From contig CP069418.1 of NCBI GenBank assembly GCA_017569305.1, positions 868,001 to 932,000 of the forward strand: a stretch of 64,000 bases of DNA. Reading direction: 5' to 3'. Made by a program: the position numbers and the translations under genes. Below are positions 19,680-26,700 of the stretch, in pieces. Within the stretch, counting starts at the first letter, position 1. Every line of letters begins with the position of its first letter. The notes under the pieces were generated by a model. It was not told where the DNA came from, made no database searches, and saw only the letters and a list, made by a program, of their open reading frames with translations. The stretch comes from Clostridiales bacterium FE2011. Its GTDB lineage: Bacteria; Bacillota; Clostridia; Christensenellales; Aristaeellaceae.

Positions 19680-19708
19680 TTGACAGGAAAATAAATGCGT
19701 GCTATAAT
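19680..19708 (+). promoter_or_regulatory. Consensus promoter of cysK
   Basis: TTGACA (19680-19685), 17-base spacer, TATAAT (19703-19708): a perfect sigma-70 consensus, implying control by repression rather than by a weak promoter. Confidence 0.9.
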
Positions 19709-19756: not shown

Positions 19757-19786
19757 ATGAAATTCCTCCTCAGTAAGCGATGTTGA
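19757..19786 (+). CDS. Nine-residue leader peptide MKFLLSKRC upstream of cysK
   Basis: ATG at 19757 with GGAG ten bases upstream; the only Cys codon (TGT, 19781-19783) is the last sense codon before TGA. Codons 4-5 contain CTCCTC (19766-19771), exactly complementary to the GAGGAG ribosome site of cysK (19831-19836). A ribosome waiting for Cys-tRNA at codon 9 would cover CTCCTC and free the cysK ribosome site. I infer a translational attenuator sensing cysteine supply; the small size means peptide expression itself is unproven. Confidence 0.55.
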   Translation: MKFLLSKRC

Positions 19787-19846: not shown

Positions 19847-20776
19847 ATGAATACCTACGACAGAATTACCGACCTGATCGGGGGAACCCCGCTTTTAAAG
19901 CTTACGAACTATAACCGGCTGAATTCACTCGGCGCAACGGTCTACGGAAAGCTGGAATACTTCAATCCCGCCGGCAGCGTAAAAGACCGGATTGCGAAAG
20001 CAATGATCGACGATGCGGAAACCAAGGGGATTCTTAAGCCCGATTCCGTTATCATTGAGCCCACCAGCGGGAACACCGGCATTGGCCTGGCTGCTGTCGC
20101 GTCGGCCCGCGGTTACCGGATTATCCTGACCATGCCTGAAACCATGAGCATTGAGCGCCGCAATCTTCTGAAGGCATACGGTGCCGAGCTTGTGCTGACA
20201 GAGGGTGCCAAGGGAATGAAGGGCGCAATTGAAAAAGCCCACGAAATCGCAGCCGAAACACCGCACAGCTTCATCCCCAGCCAGTTTACAAACATCGCCA
20301 ACCCGAAGGCGCACTATGATACAACCGGTCCGGAAATCTGGGAAGATACAGACGGCAAGGTCGATATCTTCGTCGCAGGAATCGGTACGGGCGGTACCAT
20401 TTCCGGTGTCGGCCAGTACCTGAAGGAACAGAATCCCAATGTCAAAGTTGTCGCGGTTGAGCCCGCAGGTTCGCCGGTGCTTTCCAAGGGAGCCTCCGGA
20501 CCGCACAAGATTCAGGGAATCGGCGCAGGCTTTGTACCGGACACCCTCGATACCGGAGTCTATGATGAAATCATCACGGTAGAAAACGAGGATGCTTTTG
20601 AAACCGGCAGAACCCTGGCCAGGAAGGAAGGCCTGCTGGTCGGTATCTCTTCCGGCGCCGCGGTCTGGGCCGCAACTGAACTGGCAAAGCGTCCGGAAAA
20701 CAAGGGCAAAATCATCGTTGCCCTGCTGCCGGATACCGGTGAGCGCTATCTGTCCACTCCCATGTTCTCCGATTAA
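19847..20776 (+). CDS. cysK: Cysteine synthase A (O-acetylserine sulfhydrylase)
   Basis: PLP enzyme forming L-cysteine from O-acetyl-L-serine and sulfide; 309 residues, the normal length. The PLP lysine is K46 in [13 protein letters not shown], the substrate loop [10 protein letters not shown] lies at about 73-82, and [18 protein letters not shown] binds the cofactor phosphate. The EPTSGNTG form separates it from the MccA-like paralogue at 23662, which has EGTAGNTG. The start at 19847 ([19 protein letters not shown]) has GAGGAG ten bases upstream; an earlier in-frame ATG at 19817 would include that ribosome site inside the gene. Regulated by a consensus promoter, a likely Rrf2 operator and a Cys-codon leader. 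Confidence 0.95.
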
Positions 20777-20792
20777 TCAGAAGAGGAATAAA

Positions 20793-20924
20793 ATGATGAA
20801 ATTTGCCGCACGCCCCCTGAACAGCCTGGATACCGGAGCGATCATCCGTCGCCCCGCCGGTTTTGCTGCTTCCGCGGGCATGTGTCGCTGTCTGTGTTGT
20901 CATAAAGGCACAGGCGGCAGATAA
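20793..20924 (+). CDS. 43-residue leader peptide with a CRCLCC run (cysteine attenuator)
   Basis: Starts at ATG 20793 (a second ATG follows at once) with AGAGGA five bases upstream, 16 bases after cysK. Near its end, codons 31-36 read Cys-Arg-Cys-Leu-Cys-Cys (20883-20900), followed by eight more sense codons... ending in TAA at 20922. The segment ACAGGCGG (20910-20917), inside the last codons, is exactly complementary to CCGCCTGT (20952-20959) in the 5' arm of the terminator that follows. Ribosomes stalled at the first Cys codons would leave ACAGGCGG free to form an antiterminator; ribosomes reaching the stop would cover it. This is the logic of classical amino-acid attenuators. No similarity to a functional protein is seen. 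Confidence 0.7.
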   Translation: MMKFAARPLNSLDTGAIIRRPAGFAASAGMCRCLCCHKGTGGR

Positions 20925-20947
20925 AGCATAAGCAATCACCCCCACTG

Positions 20948-21009
20948 AATCCCGCCTGTTCCGTTTCGCACTCCTGCGGAAAAAGAACACGGCGGGATTT
21001 CTGTATTTT
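20948..21009 (+). terminator. Attenuator terminator before the methyltransferase-luxS operon
   Basis: AATCCCGCC (20948-20956) pairs with GGCGGGATT (20991-20999), extended by TGTTC/GAACA inside, and is followed by TTCTGTATTTT. Its 5' arm can instead pair with ACAGGCGG in the preceding Cys-rich leader, so formation should depend on translation of that leader. Confidence 0.8.
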
Positions 21010-21033
21010 GAGACTGTATAAAGAGGTGGTTTT

Positions 21034-21969
21034 ATGATCGATGATATGGAAAGCATCACAGCGAAGCTTTGCTCTTTCGCCCGCGCTTACCATTCCAACC
21101 ATGAGAAGAATAAGATTTTTGATGATTATCTTGCCTATGACCTGATGGGCAAGGAAGAATATGATGAAATCGGCCAGCTGATCGAGCATGAATACGACAA
21201 AAACCGGTTTGATCTGGCCTATACCTTCAGCGGAAAAAGAATCCGCGACAAACTGAACCGGTATATCTCCCCTATTCCGCTCTCCCGCGCCGCCTTTGCC
21301 GAGCGGGAGCTCACCCGGTTCACCTGGCAGCGGGGAAAATGCCAGTACGTGATCTGCGGAGCCGGCATGGATACCTTTGCCTTCCGGAATGACAATCCCA
21401 ATATCCAGGTTTTTGAAATCGACCATCCCGATACCCAGCGCTACAAGCTTGAGAAAATCCGGCAGCTGGAATGGAATATTCCGTCCAATGTCCACTATGT
21501 TGCTGTGGATTTCGCAAAGGACGATATGGCCGCAGAACTGAAAAAAGCCGGATATGATCCCGCTGCGCCGTCTTTCTTCGCGATTCTCGGCGTCACTTAC
21601 TACCTGACGCTGCCGGTCTTTGAAGAAACCCTGGAGCGGATCGGCGCTATCTCTTCCTTTGGCAGCAAACTCGTTTTTGATTTCCCGGATGACACCACCT
21701 TCTCCCCGGATACGGCAGAACGGGTGCACCGCCTGTCGGAAATCACCCGTTCCCTCGGTGAGGAAATGCAGCATGGCTATGCGCTGTCAGAGGTTTCGGA
21801 AGCGTTGGAACGGCATGGTTTCCTGCTGGATGAGCATAATTCACCGGAGAAAATCCAGAAGCGTTTCTTCGACGGCCGGTCCGATGGCCAGAAGGCTTAT
21901 GAAAACATCCACTTTATCCTGGCGAAAAAGGGAGACCGCTTCAACGAAAGCTATTATCTGTATATCTGA
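21034..21969 (+). CDS. SAM-dependent methyltransferase, PPM1/TcmP (leucine carboxyl methyltransferase) type
   Basis: 311 residues. The SAM-binding region reads CQYVICGAGMDTFAFR (about residues 105-120), with the acidic ribose-binding residue in VFEIDHPDTQ and GVTYYLTLPVFEETL later on; this is the PPM1/TcmP O-methyltransferase group. Substrate unknown. It is the first gene of an operon with luxS, mccB and mccA, comparable to the Bacillus subtilis yrrT-mtnN-mccA-mccB operon, where a methyltransferase also leads. Its reaction would yield S-adenosylhomocysteine, feeding sulfur to LuxS after nucleoside removal. GAGG-type ribosome site 8-10 bases upstream. Expression is gated by the upstream attenuator. 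Confidence 0.85.
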   Translation: MIDDMESITAKLCSFARAYHSNHEKNKIFDDYLAYDLMGKEEYDEIGQLIEHEYDKNRFDLAYTFSGKRIRDKLNRYISPIPLSRAAFAERELTRFTWQRGKCQYVICGAGMDTFAFRNDNPNIQVFEIDHPDTQRYKLEKIRQLEWNIPSNVHYVAVDFAKDDMAAELKKAGYDPAAPSFFAILGVTYYLTLPVFEETLERIGAISSFGSKLVFDFPDDTTFSPDTAERVHRLSEITRSLGEEMQHGYALSEVSEALERHGFLLDEHNSPEKIQKRFFDGRSDGQKAYENIHFILAKKGDRFNESYYLYI

Positions 21970-22017: not shown

Positions 22018-22473
22018 ATGGACAGGATCGCCAGTTTTTCGGTCAATCATGACCTGCTGGAAAAAGGAATGTATATATCCCGCGTGGACGGTGACGTTGT
22101 CACCTATGATATCCGGATGAAAAAGCCCAATGGCGGGGATTACCTCGGCTATGCCGAGCTTCACACCTTTGAACATCTGTTCGCCACTTACGCGCGGAAC
22201 AGTGCTTACAAAGACAGTGTGGTTTATGTCGGTCCCATGGGATGCCGCACAGGTTTCTACCTGTTGCTTCGGGATACGGTCAGCAGCCGGGATGCCATCG
22301 ATCTTGTCAGGCAGTCATTCAGCTTTATCTCGGAGTTTGAGGGCGAAATTCCCGGCGCAAAGCGTCAGGAATGTGGAAACTGGCTGGAGCACGATCTGGC
22401 TGGAGCACGGCGGACAGCGGCGGACATGCTTGCTGTCCTGGAAAATTGGAACACGGAAAAACTTGCGTACTGA
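22018..22473 (+). CDS. luxS: S-ribosylhomocysteine lyase
   Basis: Cleaves S-ribosylhomocysteine to homocysteine and 4,5-dihydroxy-2,3-pentanedione (the AI-2 precursor). 151 residues, standard length. The metal-binding motif H49-T-F-E52-H53 and the catalytic Cys in GPMGCRTGF (C76) are present, as is the third metal ligand region AKRQECGNWLEHDL. It lies 48 bases after the methyltransferase with AAAGGAGAG upstream. Together with a Pfs/MtnN nucleosidase, not seen in this window, it recovers homocysteine from S-adenosylhomocysteine for the following mccA/mccB steps. AI-2 production is possible but may be only a by-product. Confidence 0.96.
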   Translation: MDRIASFSVNHDLLEKGMYISRVDGDVVTYDIRMKKPNGGDYLGYAELHTFEHLFATYARNSAYKDSVVYVGPMGCRTGFYLLLRDTVSSRDAIDLVRQSFSFISEFEGEIPGAKRQECGNWLEHDLAGARRTAADMLAVLENWNTEKLAY

Positions 22474-22501: not shown

Positions 22502-23659
22502 ATGGCTCACTACAAAAAAACAGGCACCGCGCTGATCCACGGCGGTATTTACGGAGACAAGGTAACCGGGGCGGTCAATACGCCCATTTATCAGACTTCC
22601 ACCTATGAACAGCATGGCCTGGGAGAAAACACCGGCTGGGAATATTCCCGCACAGGCAATCCGACCCGCGCCGCGCTGGAAGCGCTGATTGCAGAGCTGG
22701 AAGGCGGAACGGCGGGTTTTGCCTTCGGCTCCGGCATGGCGGCAATCACAGCCGTCCTGACGCTGTTTAAAACCGGTGATAAAGTGATCATTTCATCCAA
22801 CGTTTACGGCGGAACTTTCCGCGTGCTGGATAAGGTGTTCAAAAACTTCAACCTCAGTTACGAGATTGTCGATACCTCAGATCTGGCGCTGCTGGAAAAA
22901 AGCATTTCGCCGGATGTCAAAGCAATCCTCGTGGAAAGCCCGGCCAATCCTCTCCTGACTGTCACCGACCTGGGCGCCGTGGCAAAGATCGCGAAAAATC
23001 ACGGAATCCTGTCCATCGTGGACAATACCTTCATGACGCCTTATCTCCAGCAGCCGATTCGGCTGGGTGTGGACATCGTCGTTCACAGCGCCACAAAATA
23101 CCTCGGCGGGCACAGTGATCTTGTGGCAGGCCTGGTGGTAGTGAATGACGCCGCTCTGGCTGAGCGCCTCGCCTTTATCCAGAATGCCACAGGCGGCGTA
23201 CTCGGGCCCTTCGATTCTTTCCTGCTGATCCGCGGCATCAAGACGCTGGGTGTCCGGCTGGACCGTCATGTGGAGAATGCGGAAAAAGCCGCGGCGTTCC
23301 TCAAGAATCACAAAGCAGTGAAAAAAGTTTATTATCCGGGACTGCCAGACGCGCAGGGGTATGAAATCAATAAACGGCAGGCTAAAAACGGCGGTGCAAT
23401 GATTTCCTTCGAACTGAATGAACGTCATAACATCCGTAAATTCTTTAAAGCGCTGAAACTCATTGCCCTGGCCGAAAGCCTCGGCGGTGTGGAAAGCCTT
23501 GTCTGCCATCCCGCAAGTATGACCCATGCCTCCATCCCGAAGGAAGTGCGGGACCGGGTCGGCATTACGGACGGACTGATTCGCCTGTCCATCGGTATTG
23601 AGGATATTGAGGACCTGCTTGCAGACCTTGAGCAGGCCATTGCGGAAAGCGAGGAGTAA
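22502..23659 (+). CDS. mccB: Cystathionine gamma-lyase / homocysteine gamma-lyase type enzyme
   Basis: Cys/Met-metabolism PLP enzyme, 385 residues. The PLP lysine is in VVHSATKYLGGHSDLVAG (about residue 197) and the N-terminus carries YSRTGNPTR, the usual cofactor-phosphate loop from the partner subunit. Lyase (MccB), gamma-synthase (MetB) and O-acetylhomoserine sulfhydrylase activities are hard to separate by eye; the neighbours luxS and an MccA-like enzyme favour cystathionine gamma-lyase in reverse transsulfuration. Start at 22502 with AGGGAGGAAAAGG upstream. The mccA start is two bases after its stop, so the two are coupled. Confidence 0.85.
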   Translation: MAHYKKTGTALIHGGIYGDKVTGAVNTPIYQTSTYEQHGLGENTGWEYSRTGNPTRAALEALIAELEGGTAGFAFGSGMAAITAVLTLFKTGDKVIISSNVYGGTFRVLDKVFKNFNLSYEIVDTSDLALLEKSISPDVKAILVESPANPLLTVTDLGAVAKIAKNHGILSIVDNTFMTPYLQQPIRLGVDIVVHSATKYLGGHSDLVAGLVVVNDAALAERLAFIQNATGGVLGPFDSFLLIRGIKTLGVRLDRHVENAEKAAAFLKNHKAVKKVYYPGLPDAQGYEINKRQAKNGGAMISFELNERHNIRKFFKALKLIALAESLGGVESLVCHPASMTHASIPKEVRDRVGITDGLIRLSIGIEDIEDLLADLEQAIAESEE

Positions 23660-23661
23660 AA

Positions 23662-24573
23662 ATGAGCTATTTTGAATCAACCCAGGATCTGATCGGCAAT
23701 ACGCCGATCGTGAAGCTTTCCCACCTGAACCTGCCTGAAGGGGTCAATCTGTTTGCGAAACTGGAACTGTATAATCCGGGCGGCAGTGTCAAAGACCGGA
23801 TCGGCAGGTCCATGCTTGAGGATGCCGAGGAAAAAGGCCTGCTGAAGCCCGGCGGAACCATTGTCGAAGGCACCGCCGGAAACACCGGCCTCGGAATCGC
23901 TTTTGCGGCGCTGAACCGGGGCTACCGGGTCATCTTTGTCGTGCCGACCAAGTTCTCCGTGGAAAAACAGACCCTCATGCGCGCACTGGGTGCGGAAATC
24001 ATCAATACCCCCCGGGAGGAAGGAATGCTCGGTGCGGAAGCAAAGGCAGAGGAACTGCGCGCCTCCATTCCCGGCGCCGTAACCCTGCGGCAGTTCAAAA
24101 ACCTTGCCAACCCCAAAGCACATTATGAAACAACCGGTCCGGAAATCTGGCGTGACCTGGAGGGAAAAATTGACTACCTGGTGGCCGGTGCCGGCAGCGG
24201 CGGCACTTATTCCGGCGTCGTTCGCTATCTGAAGGAGCAGAATCCGGCCATCAAAGGGATCCTGGCCGACCCGGTCGGTTCCACCATGGGCGGCGGAGAG
24301 CACGGGGATTATAACATCGAAGGGATCGGCAATGATTTCGTCGCTGATACCATGGATATGTCCCTCGTGGATAAAGTGGTCAAGGTGGATGATAATGATG
24401 CCTTTACCGGTGCCCGGGAACTGGCCAGAAAAGAGGGCATCTTCGGCGGCTCCTCCTCCGGTGCTGCACTGAGCGCGGCGAAGAAGCTCATTGACTCAGG
24501 AGCCCGGGGCAATATCGTGGTCATCTTTCCCGACAGGGGCGACCGCTATTTCAGCAAAAACCTGTATGCATAA
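23662..24573 (+). CDS. mccA: MccA-like cystathionine beta-synthase (CysK paralogue)
   Basis: 303-residue PLP enzyme. The PLP lysine is K44 in NPGGSVKDRIGRS, and the substrate loop reads EGTAGNTGLG rather than the [10 protein letters not shown] of true CysK, as in MccA/CBS-type enzymes that condense homocysteine with serine or O-acetylserine. GAGSGGTYSGVVRYLKEQNP is the phosphate loop. It is the last gene of the methyltransferase-luxS-mccB-mccA unit; the stop is followed by a GC-rich hairpin that faces the convergent rrf2 gene. The combination gives homocysteine to cystathionine (MccA) to cysteine (MccB). Confidence 0.87.
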   Translation: MSYFESTQDLIGNTPIVKLSHLNLPEGVNLFAKLELYNPGGSVKDRIGRSMLEDAEEKGLLKPGGTIVEGTAGNTGLGIAFAALNRGYRVIFVVPTKFSVEKQTLMRALGAEIINTPREEGMLGAEAKAEELRASIPGAVTLRQFKNLANPKAHYETTGPEIWRDLEGKIDYLVAGAGSGGTYSGVVRYLKEQNPAIKGILADPVGSTMGGGEHGDYNIEGIGNDFVADTMDMSLVDKVVKVDDNDAFTGARELARKEGIFGGSSSGAALSAAKKLIDSGARGNIVVIFPDRGDRYFSKNLYA

Positions 24574-24629: not shown

Positions 24630-25067
24630 TCAGATTACATAGTCGTTTGCGTACCGGTCACGCTGCCGGTCCAGGATATCCTGCAGGGTGATACTGTCGA
24701 GATATTCATTGATGACCCTGGACAGTCCCTGCCAGACCGGAAGTATCACACAGTATGCGCTGCGTTCACACTCAACAGGATCCTGGTCAGCACAATCCAC
24801 AGGTGCCAGCGATCCCTCCGTGCAGCGCAGGATATCACCGACGGTATACTTGTCCGGTGACTTGGCCAGCATATATCCGCCCTGGGATCCGCGATTCGCC
24901 CTGAGAATATCCGTCTTGTTGAAGATCGGAATAATCTGTTCCAGGTACTTTTTGGAAATGTTCTGGCGCTTCGCAATTTCATTCAGGGAAATATATCCTG
25001 CCTGCTGGTGCTCTGCAAGGTCAAGAAGAAAACGAAGTGCATAACGGCCTTTTGTGGAAATCTTCAT
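24630..25067 (-). CDS. Rrf2-family repressor (CymR/IscR-like)
   Basis: 145-residue winged-helix regulator. KISTKGRYALRFLLDLAEH and the recognition region NISKKYLEQIIPIFNKTDIL are family hallmarks. Cysteines 92, 100 and 106 (plus C82) resemble the three-Cys cluster site of IscR, so an iron-sulfur or thiol sensor is possible; CymR, in contrast, has few cysteines and acts with CysK. Location between the cysteine operon and the LysR gene makes it the likely local sulfur repressor. I start it at 25067, where GAGG lies eight bases upstream, rather than at 25073. Its own promoter contains an operator-like element, suggesting autorepression. Confidence 0.88.
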   Translation of the reverse strand: MKISTKGRYALRFLLDLAEHQQAGYISLNEIAKRQNISKKYLEQIIPIFNKTDILRANRGSQGGYMLAKSPDKYTVGDILRCTEGSLAPVDCADQDPVECERSAYCVILPVWQGLSRVINEYLDSITLQDILDRQRDRYANDYVI

Positions 25068-25095
25068 CGTCATTACCTCACAATCTTATAACCCC

Positions 25096-26198: not shown

Positions 26199-26297
26199 AT
26201 GTCACTGAAGCAGACTGGCACACGAATGGGCATGTGTTTATGTACGATGCGGTTCAGCGTTTCCCGGATCGGCCGATGTTGCACGTCCCGAATGTGA
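26199..26297 (+). CDS. 32-residue leader peptide with Cys-Leu-Cys and Cys-Cys
   Basis: ATG at 26199 with a near-perfect ribosome site AAGGGAGG eight bases upstream. The peptide begins MSLKQTGTRMGMCLCT and later has GRCC; Cys codons are at 26235-26237, 26241-26243 and 26277-26282. The segment TTCAGCGTT (26253-26261), between the two Cys groups, can pair with AACGCTGGA (26327-26335, one G-U), which overlaps the 5' arm of the terminator downstream. The design matches a cysteine-responsive attenuator, though how ribosome position switches the fold is less clear than at 20793-21009. Confidence 0.6.
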   Translation: MSLKQTGTRMGMCLCTMRFSVSRIGRCCTSRM

Positions 26298-26331: not shown

Positions 26332-26360
26332 TGGAAGTATGTGTAAGACTTCCATTTTTT
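26332..26360 (+). terminator. Attenuator terminator in the operon leader
   Basis: TGGAAGT (26332-26338) pairs with ACTTCCA (26348-26354) around a 9-base loop and is followed by TTTTTT. It lies between the Cys leader peptide and the first structural gene. Confidence 0.8.
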
Positions 26361-26391: not shown

Positions 26392-26700
26392 TTGATTCAA
26401 TTCCTTAGTCTCGTTCTCAGCTTCATCTTCCTCTTCTTTGCCGGAAGCATCCGGAGTGCAGAACCCGGTGATTGCTGCGGCCGGGAAGGAACGAACAGCT
26501 GCTGTCAGCAGGAAGCCGTGAAAGAGACTGTTTCAGAAAAAACTCCGGACTGCTGCATTCCGGAAGCGGCGAAGGAAAACACTTCGGAAAACGCTCCCGA
26601 CTGTTGCAGCCAGGAAAACCGGGAAACAGAAAGCTGCTGTCAGGAGGAAAGCCATGAAAAGAGCCTTCCGGATAATATTCCTGACTGCTGCGGAACCTGA
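26392..26700 (+). CDS. Exported Cys-Cys-repeat peptide of unknown function
   Basis: 102 residues from a TTG start at 26392, chosen because GGAGGG lies seven bases upstream. Residues 3-18 are strongly hydrophobic (FLSLVLSFIFLFFAGS), a signal peptide or membrane anchor. The rest is acidic and repetitive, with twelve cysteines as six CC pairs, mostly DCC or SCC (PDCC occurs three times), spaced by Glu/Lys-rich linkers; there are no other cysteines. This could bind soft metals or thiol compounds outside the membrane. I do not recognise the family. It is the first structural gene behind a cysteine-type attenuator and 49 bases before the importer's binding protein. Confidence 0.6.
   Translation: MIQFLSLVLSFIFLFFAGSIRSAEPGDCCGREGTNSCCQQEAVKETVSEKTPDCCIPEAAKENTSENAPDCCSQENRETESCCQEESHEKSLPDNIPDCCGT

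Follow-up and report, generated by a model that had tools for sequence, protein, structure and literature searches.

A predicted ribosome-mediated cysteine attenuator between cysK and a methyltransferase-luxS-mccB-mccA gene set in a member of the Clostridia

In the genome of Clostridiales bacterium FE2011, which is a single contig of 3.56 Mb, cysK is separated from a methyltransferase gene, luxS, mccB, and mccA by a short frame with a cluster of cysteine codons near its end and by a hairpin behind this frame. The question raised by this arrangement is whether the intervening sequence is a switch operated by the translation of its cysteine codons, as an earlier note on this DNA had proposed, or serves another purpose. 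The whole stretch of DNA that was analyzed, referred to here as the window, is 64,000 nucleotides long, and all coordinates are counted from its first letter. The region 20793-21008, judged from its sequence and from that of its relatives, very probably acts as a ribosome-mediated transcription attenuator responsive to charged tRNA-Cys inside a cysK-methyltransferase-luxS-mccB-mccA unit.

The genes of this unit lie on the plus strand. A promoter matching the consensus at 12 of 12 positions (TTGACA-17-TATAAT, 19680-19708) stands before the gene of a cysK-type PLP enzyme (19847-20776; PF00291), the stop codon of which is 16 nt from the leader ORF. Behind the leader, profile matches bear out the methyltransferase-luxS-mccBA order named earlier, comprising a SAM-dependent methyltransferase of the LCM/TIGR00027 family (21034-21969; PF04072, with TIGR00027 above its cut-off), luxS (22018-22473; PF02664, with NF002604 above its cut-off), an mccB-type PLP enzyme of Cys/Met metabolism (22502-23659; PF01053), and an mccA/cysK-type PLP enzyme (23662-24573; PF00291, the best model being TIGR01136, which scores 342.8 bits, below its cut-off of 344.15). 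A scan of the plus strand revealed a weak promoter-like site (9/12) within cysK at 20538-20566 and no promoter-like site in 20567-21050; the promoter at 19680-19708 probably drives the whole unit, leader included. The methionine-to-cysteine pathway is assigned to these genes from established knowledge of MccA, MccB, and LuxS. The assignment rests also on the available text of PMC2940859. Further downstream, a gene for an Rrf2 regulator on the minus strand (24630-25073), for which the nearest models are rrf2_super, IscR, and CymR (115 bits against the CymR cut-off of 195), could provide a second, protein-based layer of control.

The leader ORF (MMKFAARPLNSLDTGAIIRRPAGFAASAGMCRCLCCHKGTGGR; 20793-20924, plus strand) appears in the ORF list and is preceded by the Shine-Dalgarno (SD) sequence AGAGG at 20782-20786. 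MCRCLCC stands near its C-terminal end, and the regulatory codons TGT CGC TGT CTG TGT TGT (Cys-Arg-Cys-Leu-Cys-Cys), read directly from the sequence, occupy 20883-20900; the Cys codons, all TGT, are at 20883, 20889, 20895, and 20898, and the stop codon is at 20922-20924. On re-reading, the coordinates and letters previously given for the SD-led frame and its Cys-Arg-Cys-Leu-Cys-Cys run were found to be right. The frame had been described as 43 codons long, and 20793-20924 is indeed open; its start is more likely at 20796, giving 42 codons, because the relative G035 carries ATC in place of the ATG at 20793. A simulation based on the Cys fraction of all long frames of the window (340/21,749) yielded p ~2e-5 for at least four Cys within a six-codon stretch of a 43-codon frame.

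Three helices can be drawn from the Cys codons onward. The first, overlooked in the earlier note, is an anti-antiterminator hairpin, P1 (20886-20920), seen in the minimum free energy (MFE) fold and in relatives, in which the antiterminator strand is held by the Cys codons (20886-20898 against 20907-20920, and three outer pairs). The second is the antiterminator, in which ACAGGCGG (20910-20917) is the exact 8-base complement of CCGCCTGT (20952-20959), as had been claimed, the latter strand lying within the 5' arm of the terminator; both strands are backed by duplex tests and alignment. The third is the intrinsic terminator that had been placed behind the leader, which folding recovered as a hairpin of 54 nt and -29.7 kcal/mol (20947-21000), followed by an interrupted U-run, UUUCUGUAUUUU (the whole element being 20947-21008), and which is further backed by covariation and background rates. 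Simple pattern scans for terminators did not list the hairpin 20947-21000, probably because their rule disallows such a structure and an interrupted U-run. The segment 20880-21010, containing both P1 and the terminator, has an MFE of -52.8 kcal/mol (z = -5.8), a value equaled by none of 200 shuffles. For the single window sequence, the antiterminator duplex gives p = 0.013 against dinucleotide shuffles, and the P1 leader-region fold gives z -2.3 and p = 0.028. Since strand 2 (20910-20917) pairs with either the codons or the terminator arm, the arrangement is the classical one of 1:2, 2:3, and 3:4 helices, and in this folding model it is P1 that completes the trp-type three-state logic. In the trp and his attenuators of enterobacteria, the regulatory codons lie inside strand 1, and the 1:2, 2:3, and 3:4 helices are mutually exclusive; the strand layout of the window is the same, whereas the amino acid, the host, and the position inside an operon behind cysK differ.

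From the ORF, its codons, and the three mutually exclusive helices, together with their conservation and gene context, we infer translation of the leader, stalling, termination, a response to cysteine, and kinetic antitermination. With ample Cys-tRNA, a ribosome would pass the Cys codons, reach the stop codon at 20922, and mask 20910-20917, upon which the terminator would form and only cysK would be transcribed. With scarce Cys-tRNA, the ribosome would stall within the Cys codons and open P1, and the freed strand 20910-20917 would capture 20952-20959 ahead of the synthesis of the 3' arm of the terminator; with the terminator blocked, polymerase would continue into the genes that turn homocysteine derived from S-adenosylmethionine into cysteine. 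If no ribosome were present, P1 would keep the antiterminator strand, and the terminator would form.

Orthologues of the window methyltransferase, defined by at least 48% identity to it, were collected by searches of 100 relatives, of a genome collection (13 loci), and of 391 genomes of the class; the remaining matches are regarded as distant paralogues, with at most 39% identity among the 100 relatives and E-values of 1e-72 and 1e-74 in the class search. In the latter, seven genomes had matches with E below 1e-70, G460 and G467 being distant, and no further orthologues were found in the four orders searched (58, 28, 51, and 9 genomes). The resulting 19 loci are the window, G001, G035, L032/G008, L035, L033, L034, L036-L043, L045/G157, L046/G259, L047/G226, and L048/G107. 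Their hosts are rumen and other gut bacteria, labeled as Oscillospiraceae and Lachnospiraceae bins, Ruminococcus flavefaciens, and, in one case, a Treponema contig, although these labels may be wrong because the sources are mostly metagenome-assembled. On the Treponema-labeled metagenome contig (L042), the operon is accompanied by a Cys leader whose P1 hairpin is near-perfect, reflecting either horizontal transfer of the operon and switch together or misbinning.

Conservation of the Cys codons in relatives had been named as a check, and it holds throughout: an SD-preceded ATG ORF with at least three Cys in seven codons is present in 19 of 19 upstream regions, compared with 28 of 3250 background windows, and four Cys in eight codons occur in 15 of 19 compared with 1 of 3250, where the rule covered the 300 nt before the gene and the background consisted of 300-nt windows on both strands of 16 sources, leader regions excluded. 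Upstream of the distant paralogues (L024-L030, L049, and L050), such a Cys-cluster ORF is found in 0 of 9 cases, L025 offering only 145 nt of upstream sequence. The leaders carry 4 to 8 Cys codons. A terminator-like hairpin with a U-rich tail was obtained by folding behind the leader in all 19 loci, in three of them once the search had been confined to sequence 3' of the stop codon; hairpins of -18 kcal/mol or lower occur in 15 of the 19 (background, 46 of 400 windows of 145 nt), and those of -22 kcal/mol or lower in 12 (background, 18 of 400).

The case put forward as speaking against attenuation was that of relatives with neither the Cys codons nor the alternative pairing. The opposite was seen, the pairing being kept in nine non-Ruminococcus lineages, in some with different letters. 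The strand behind the Cys codons, CAGGCGGC, is the same in the window, G001, G035, L032, L035, L033, and L034, and is slightly changed in L045 (CAGGAGGCGG) and L046 (CAGGTGGC); in L048, a strand of other letters, CATAGGCG, matches the terminator arm of the same locus, CGTCTATG, as does that of L042 (ACAGCGGTAA with TTACCGGCTGT, with one bulge). The features of trp/his-type attenuators occur together in this family, including the SD-led ATG ORF, Cys codons, a terminator, P1, and, in the nine non-Ruminococcus lineages, an antiterminator, and the comparison supports trp-type cysteine attenuation.

Covariation in both the terminator and antiterminator helices was the other check named, and it succeeded for the former only. 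In pair counts over seven alignable sequences, three of them from one genus, the terminator has 93.1% of cells paired and 12 double-changed cells, a number reached by 0 of 500 shuffles. The antiterminator has 94.6% of cells paired with one double change, and 68 of 500 shuffles attain its covariation score because six of its eight pairs never vary. For P1, 77.3% of cells are paired, and 42 of 500 shuffles attain the score; clear covariation is therefore confined, of the three helices, to the terminator. Against dinucleotide shuffles, the antiterminator duplex in eight non-Ruminococcus lineages without the window gives a combined p = 8e-5 (0.019-0.43 singly), being weak in relatives from the window's own genus (G035, p = 0.23; L032, 0.09; L035, 0.08). 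Permutation indicates that terminator arms pair better with their own strand than foreign arms do, with p = 2e-4 for nine non-Ruminococcus lineages including the window and p = 5e-5 for 15 lineages, values that may be inflated by kinship among the CAGGCGGC lineages. The P1 leader-region fold gives a combined p = 1.4e-4 in eight lineages without the window, L034, L043, L046, and L048 not falling below 0.05 singly, and p = 0.03 in Ruminococcus-type leaders. Covariation of the terminator and own-versus-foreign pairing support the proposed switch in the nine non-Ruminococcus lineages.

A shared antiterminator was also tried for the Ruminococcus-type leaders (L036-L041) and gained no support, the duplex giving a combined p = 0.39 for five of them and p = 0.34 for L041 separately, and the own-versus-foreign permutation giving p = 0.69 for all six. 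These leaders have Cys codons and terminators, and an antiterminator is not supported in them by the sequence comparison.

Ribosome positions were simulated in 11 loci by the crude means of blocking bases. When a ribosome occupies the Cys codons before the 3' arm of the terminator is made, the terminator arm finds an upstream partner in 11 of 11 loci, and in the window this pairing is the strand-2:3 helix. The states contrast clearly in no more than three loci, namely L033 (0 pairs if no ribosome is bound) and L047 and L042 (0 pairs if one occupies the stop codon); elsewhere, and also in the window, both of these states leave the terminator arm paired with different upstream sequence. The complete terminator, once made, is the most stable fold in every simulated state of all 11 loci, so that antitermination must be kinetic, which this simulation neither proves nor excludes.

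The distribution of the leader was explored at several levels. Searching with the leader peptide by tblastn yielded matches with E below 0.05 in 16 of 100 relatives, a number that counts the genome of the window itself. The 13 weak loci among them (L007-L019) were discarded: Cys-cluster frames lie near the match in 2 of 13 (L010 and L013), and these frames have GTG or TTG starts and nothing leader-like. A protein-level search returned one near-identical protein only. The covariance model R1, built from seven sequences, was searched over the window and 18 loci, and outside its training set it found full-length leader matches in L053 (E 1e-4) and L054 (E 1e-3), the latter not strong by itself because reverse-strand terminator matches reach E 0.001 in the same search; none of L036-L043 was matched at E up to 10. 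Among 45 genomes of the genus, strong R1 matches occur in G000, G001, G008, and G035, the same four that have a methyltransferase match with E below 1e-200, while G041 has only a distant methyltransferase paralogue (E 1e-33) and no leader match. Among the 391 genomes of the class, six have R1 matches with E below 0.001, namely G000, G157, and G259 together with the weak G317, G385, and G149. These three weak matches and G044 in the genus were set aside, having no Cys ORF within 150 nt and resembling ordinary hairpins or terminators by eye. The leaders of G107 and G226 are matched by R1 on direct search and are absent from the class-wide R1 results.

Stalling might instead work by translation attenuation or by arrest of the nascent peptide, in the manner of the polycysteine ORFs of mycobacteria, and would then affect downstream translation or Rho and leave the intrinsic terminator aside. 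Such a reading has a cysteine precedent in the polycysteine leaderless sORFs of mycobacteria, described as translation attenuation (Canestrari 2020, as cited in the available text of PMC13236596), and would accommodate both the Ruminococcus-type leaders without a supported antiterminator and the mini-leaders before cysK without a visible terminator behind them. It is nevertheless unlikely for the window, in view of the terminator-like hairpin that follows the leader in every locus and exceeds background at -18 kcal/mol or lower, and of the strand behind the Cys codons, which matches its own terminator arm in the nine non-Ruminococcus lineages.

The leader might instead encode a functional Cys-rich small protein for metal or redox binding, in which case the hairpin would simply terminate cysK, and leaky read-through would supply the methyltransferase operon. 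CxCxCC is similar to metal-binding motifs, and in 8 of 18 neighborhoods the leader follows cysK, as this reading would have it. However, the leader peptides of different lineages have little in common but their Cys runs, and the part behind these runs behaves as RNA: in L032 and L035, the leader stop codon precedes CAGGCGGC, so that the C-terminal part is lost, and in L033, the same block is read in another frame (CAC AGG CGG). Retention of CAGGCGGC out of frame or past the stop therefore indicates that the RNA, and not the peptide, is selected. Furthermore, the leader of L038 has its own 12/12 promoter, and no cysK-type best match was obtained on that locus; therefore, the terminator there lies within a 5' leader, and the switch is a true 5' leader in some hosts. 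In view of the peptide comparison and of L038, a small-protein role is very unlikely.

As to the wider gene context, a promoter scan before the leader of L042 found none. Behind the leader, mccB is downstream of the methyltransferase on the same strand in 16 of 18 neighborhoods (in six of these behind luxS), mccA in 14, and luxS in 7; of the two neighborhoods without mccB, L034 has a LysR gene in its place, and L035 ends with the contig.

A metabolite riboswitch or T-box with a chance Cys-rich frame deserves hardly any credence, for although a Cys T-box controls the matching operon type in other clostridia (PMC2940859, available text), no Rfam family save a tRNA, and thus no T-box, reaches the gathering score in the window, none of the 11 T-box matches of the genome with E below 0.01 (3 above the cut-off) falls inside its coordinates, and the conserved parts are codons and exclusive helices.

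Apart from the attenuator, two further Cys leaders were noticed in the window. One is a mini-leader of nine residues, MKFLLSKRC-stop (19757-19786), between the cysK promoter and cysK, behind which no terminator was seen; frames ending in RC-stop precede cysK in 6 of 8 cysK loci (window, L055, L032, L035, L043, and L051) and are absent from L034 and L052. The other, MSLKQTGTRMGMCLCTMRFSVSRIGRCCTSRM (MGMCLC...GRCC; 26199-26297), lies before the substrate-binding protein gene of a sulfonate-type transporter, has a hairpin and U-run behind it (26332-26360), and has counterparts in L055, L032, and L034; a full antiterminator for it was not significant in four loci (p 0.20, 0.23, 0.48, and 0.05). 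Additionally, all 6 Ruminococcus-type leaders (L036-L041) share an identical nine-base block, GCGATGTTG, which is also found in the cysK mini-leader of the window (19777-19785), where it is read as Arg(CGA)-Cys(TGT). A pairing partner for GCGATGTTG before cysK, sought around the start of that gene (AACATC in the window), was considered and dropped, being missing by eye in L055 and L032. Between the second leader and the transporter, the frame at 26392-26700 shows repeated CC pairs (GDCCG, SCCQ, PDCC...) and no NCBIfam match, and its product is possibly a secreted protein; in L038 and L039, CC repeats of a similar kind are visible by eye within the N-terminal region of the substrate-binding protein itself. 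In L037-L040, a TTCC-N4-GGAA palindrome (e.g., TTCCGATAGGAA) seen by eye just 3' of the promoter, upstream of the leaders, is a possible operator.

The two additional leaders and their counterparts suggest regulon-wide use of Cys codons and form the basis of a bolder reading, for which the chances appear evenly balanced, namely that Cys-codon leader ORFs instead of T-boxes run the whole cysteine regulon here through two classes of device. One class would be the three-helix attenuator. The other, perhaps translational, would comprise ORFs that end in or contain Arg(CGA)-Cys(TGT), often within GCGATGTTG and often just before the stop codon. Leaders with Arg(CGA)-Cys(TGT) precede cysK and the sulfonate-type transporter and occur among the Ruminococcus-type methyltransferase leaders.

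Several known systems resemble the proposed attenuator in part; the comparisons below rest on the available text of the papers cited. The closest in function are the ubiG-mccBA operons of C. perfringens, C. botulinum, and C. acetobutylicum, which are controlled by a Cys T-box, reportedly not fully functional in C. acetobutylicum (PMC2940859). These ubiG-mccB-mccA(-luxS) operons share with the window the pathway, the tRNA-Cys charging signal, premature termination, and a methyltransferase gene in first place; the T-box binds tRNA directly, whereas a translated Cys-codon ORF would be the sensor here, and UbiG stands where the window has an LCM/TIGR00027 methyltransferase (PMC2940859). The uORFC-8-2 motif before cysS in Rhodobacterales, for which ribosome-mediated attenuation is predicted, likewise combines tandem Cys codons with an intrinsic terminator (PMC8632094). 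That motif is alphaproteobacterial and comprises two Cys codons and two stems, unlike the 4 to 8 Cys codons, three exclusive helices, and biosynthetic operon found here in Clostridia (PMC8632094). Cys-codon ORFs before cysteine genes are also known from Actinobacteria, where Cys runs precede cys operons with no conserved terminators (PMC1262725), and from mycobacteria (PMC13236596, PMC4633059); these ORFs are leaderless and described as translational or are devoid of conserved terminators, whereas the window leader has both an SD sequence and an intrinsic terminator and so departs from the polycysteine type (PMC13236596, PMC1262725). Within the Firmicutes, leader-peptide attenuators are rarely reported, and the His leader peptides before hisZ/hisS* of bacilli, presented as noticeable, offer a case of a 'regular' leader peptide in place of a T-box, as here, for histidine in Bacilli instead of cysteine in Clostridia (PMC2965389). 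A cysteine leader peptide in Firmicutes was not found among the papers listed by searches of open-access literature, which omits most subscription journals; the cysteine cases that these searches yielded come from mycobacteria and other Actinobacteria and from cysS of Rhodobacterales. The best reading is a mechanism of known kind, trp-type, in a new combination of amino acid, host, and operon, not found for Clostridia in the literature searched.

The genome itself has T-box matches at other genes. A profile scan of the genes behind seven of the 11 matches indicated 2-isopropylmalate-synthase-, aminotransferase-, proline-symporter-, and acyl-CoA-ligase-like products, trpE, and two TrpX-like products, mostly below cut-offs, and the other four were assigned by eye to tryptophan-synthase-like, AMP ligase, and threonyl- and prolyl-tRNA-synthetase-like genes. 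The same decision, methionine to cysteine, appears to be taken on the same tRNA-Cys signal by an RNA device different from the T-box of other clostridia, making this locus a clean case of regulatory devices replacing each other. In the window's genus, a switch placed between cysK and the remaining genes would uncouple sulfide assimilation by cysK from methionine-to-cysteine conversion. Across the family, the switch would be a portable cysteine sensor, with 19 natural variants open to direct test.
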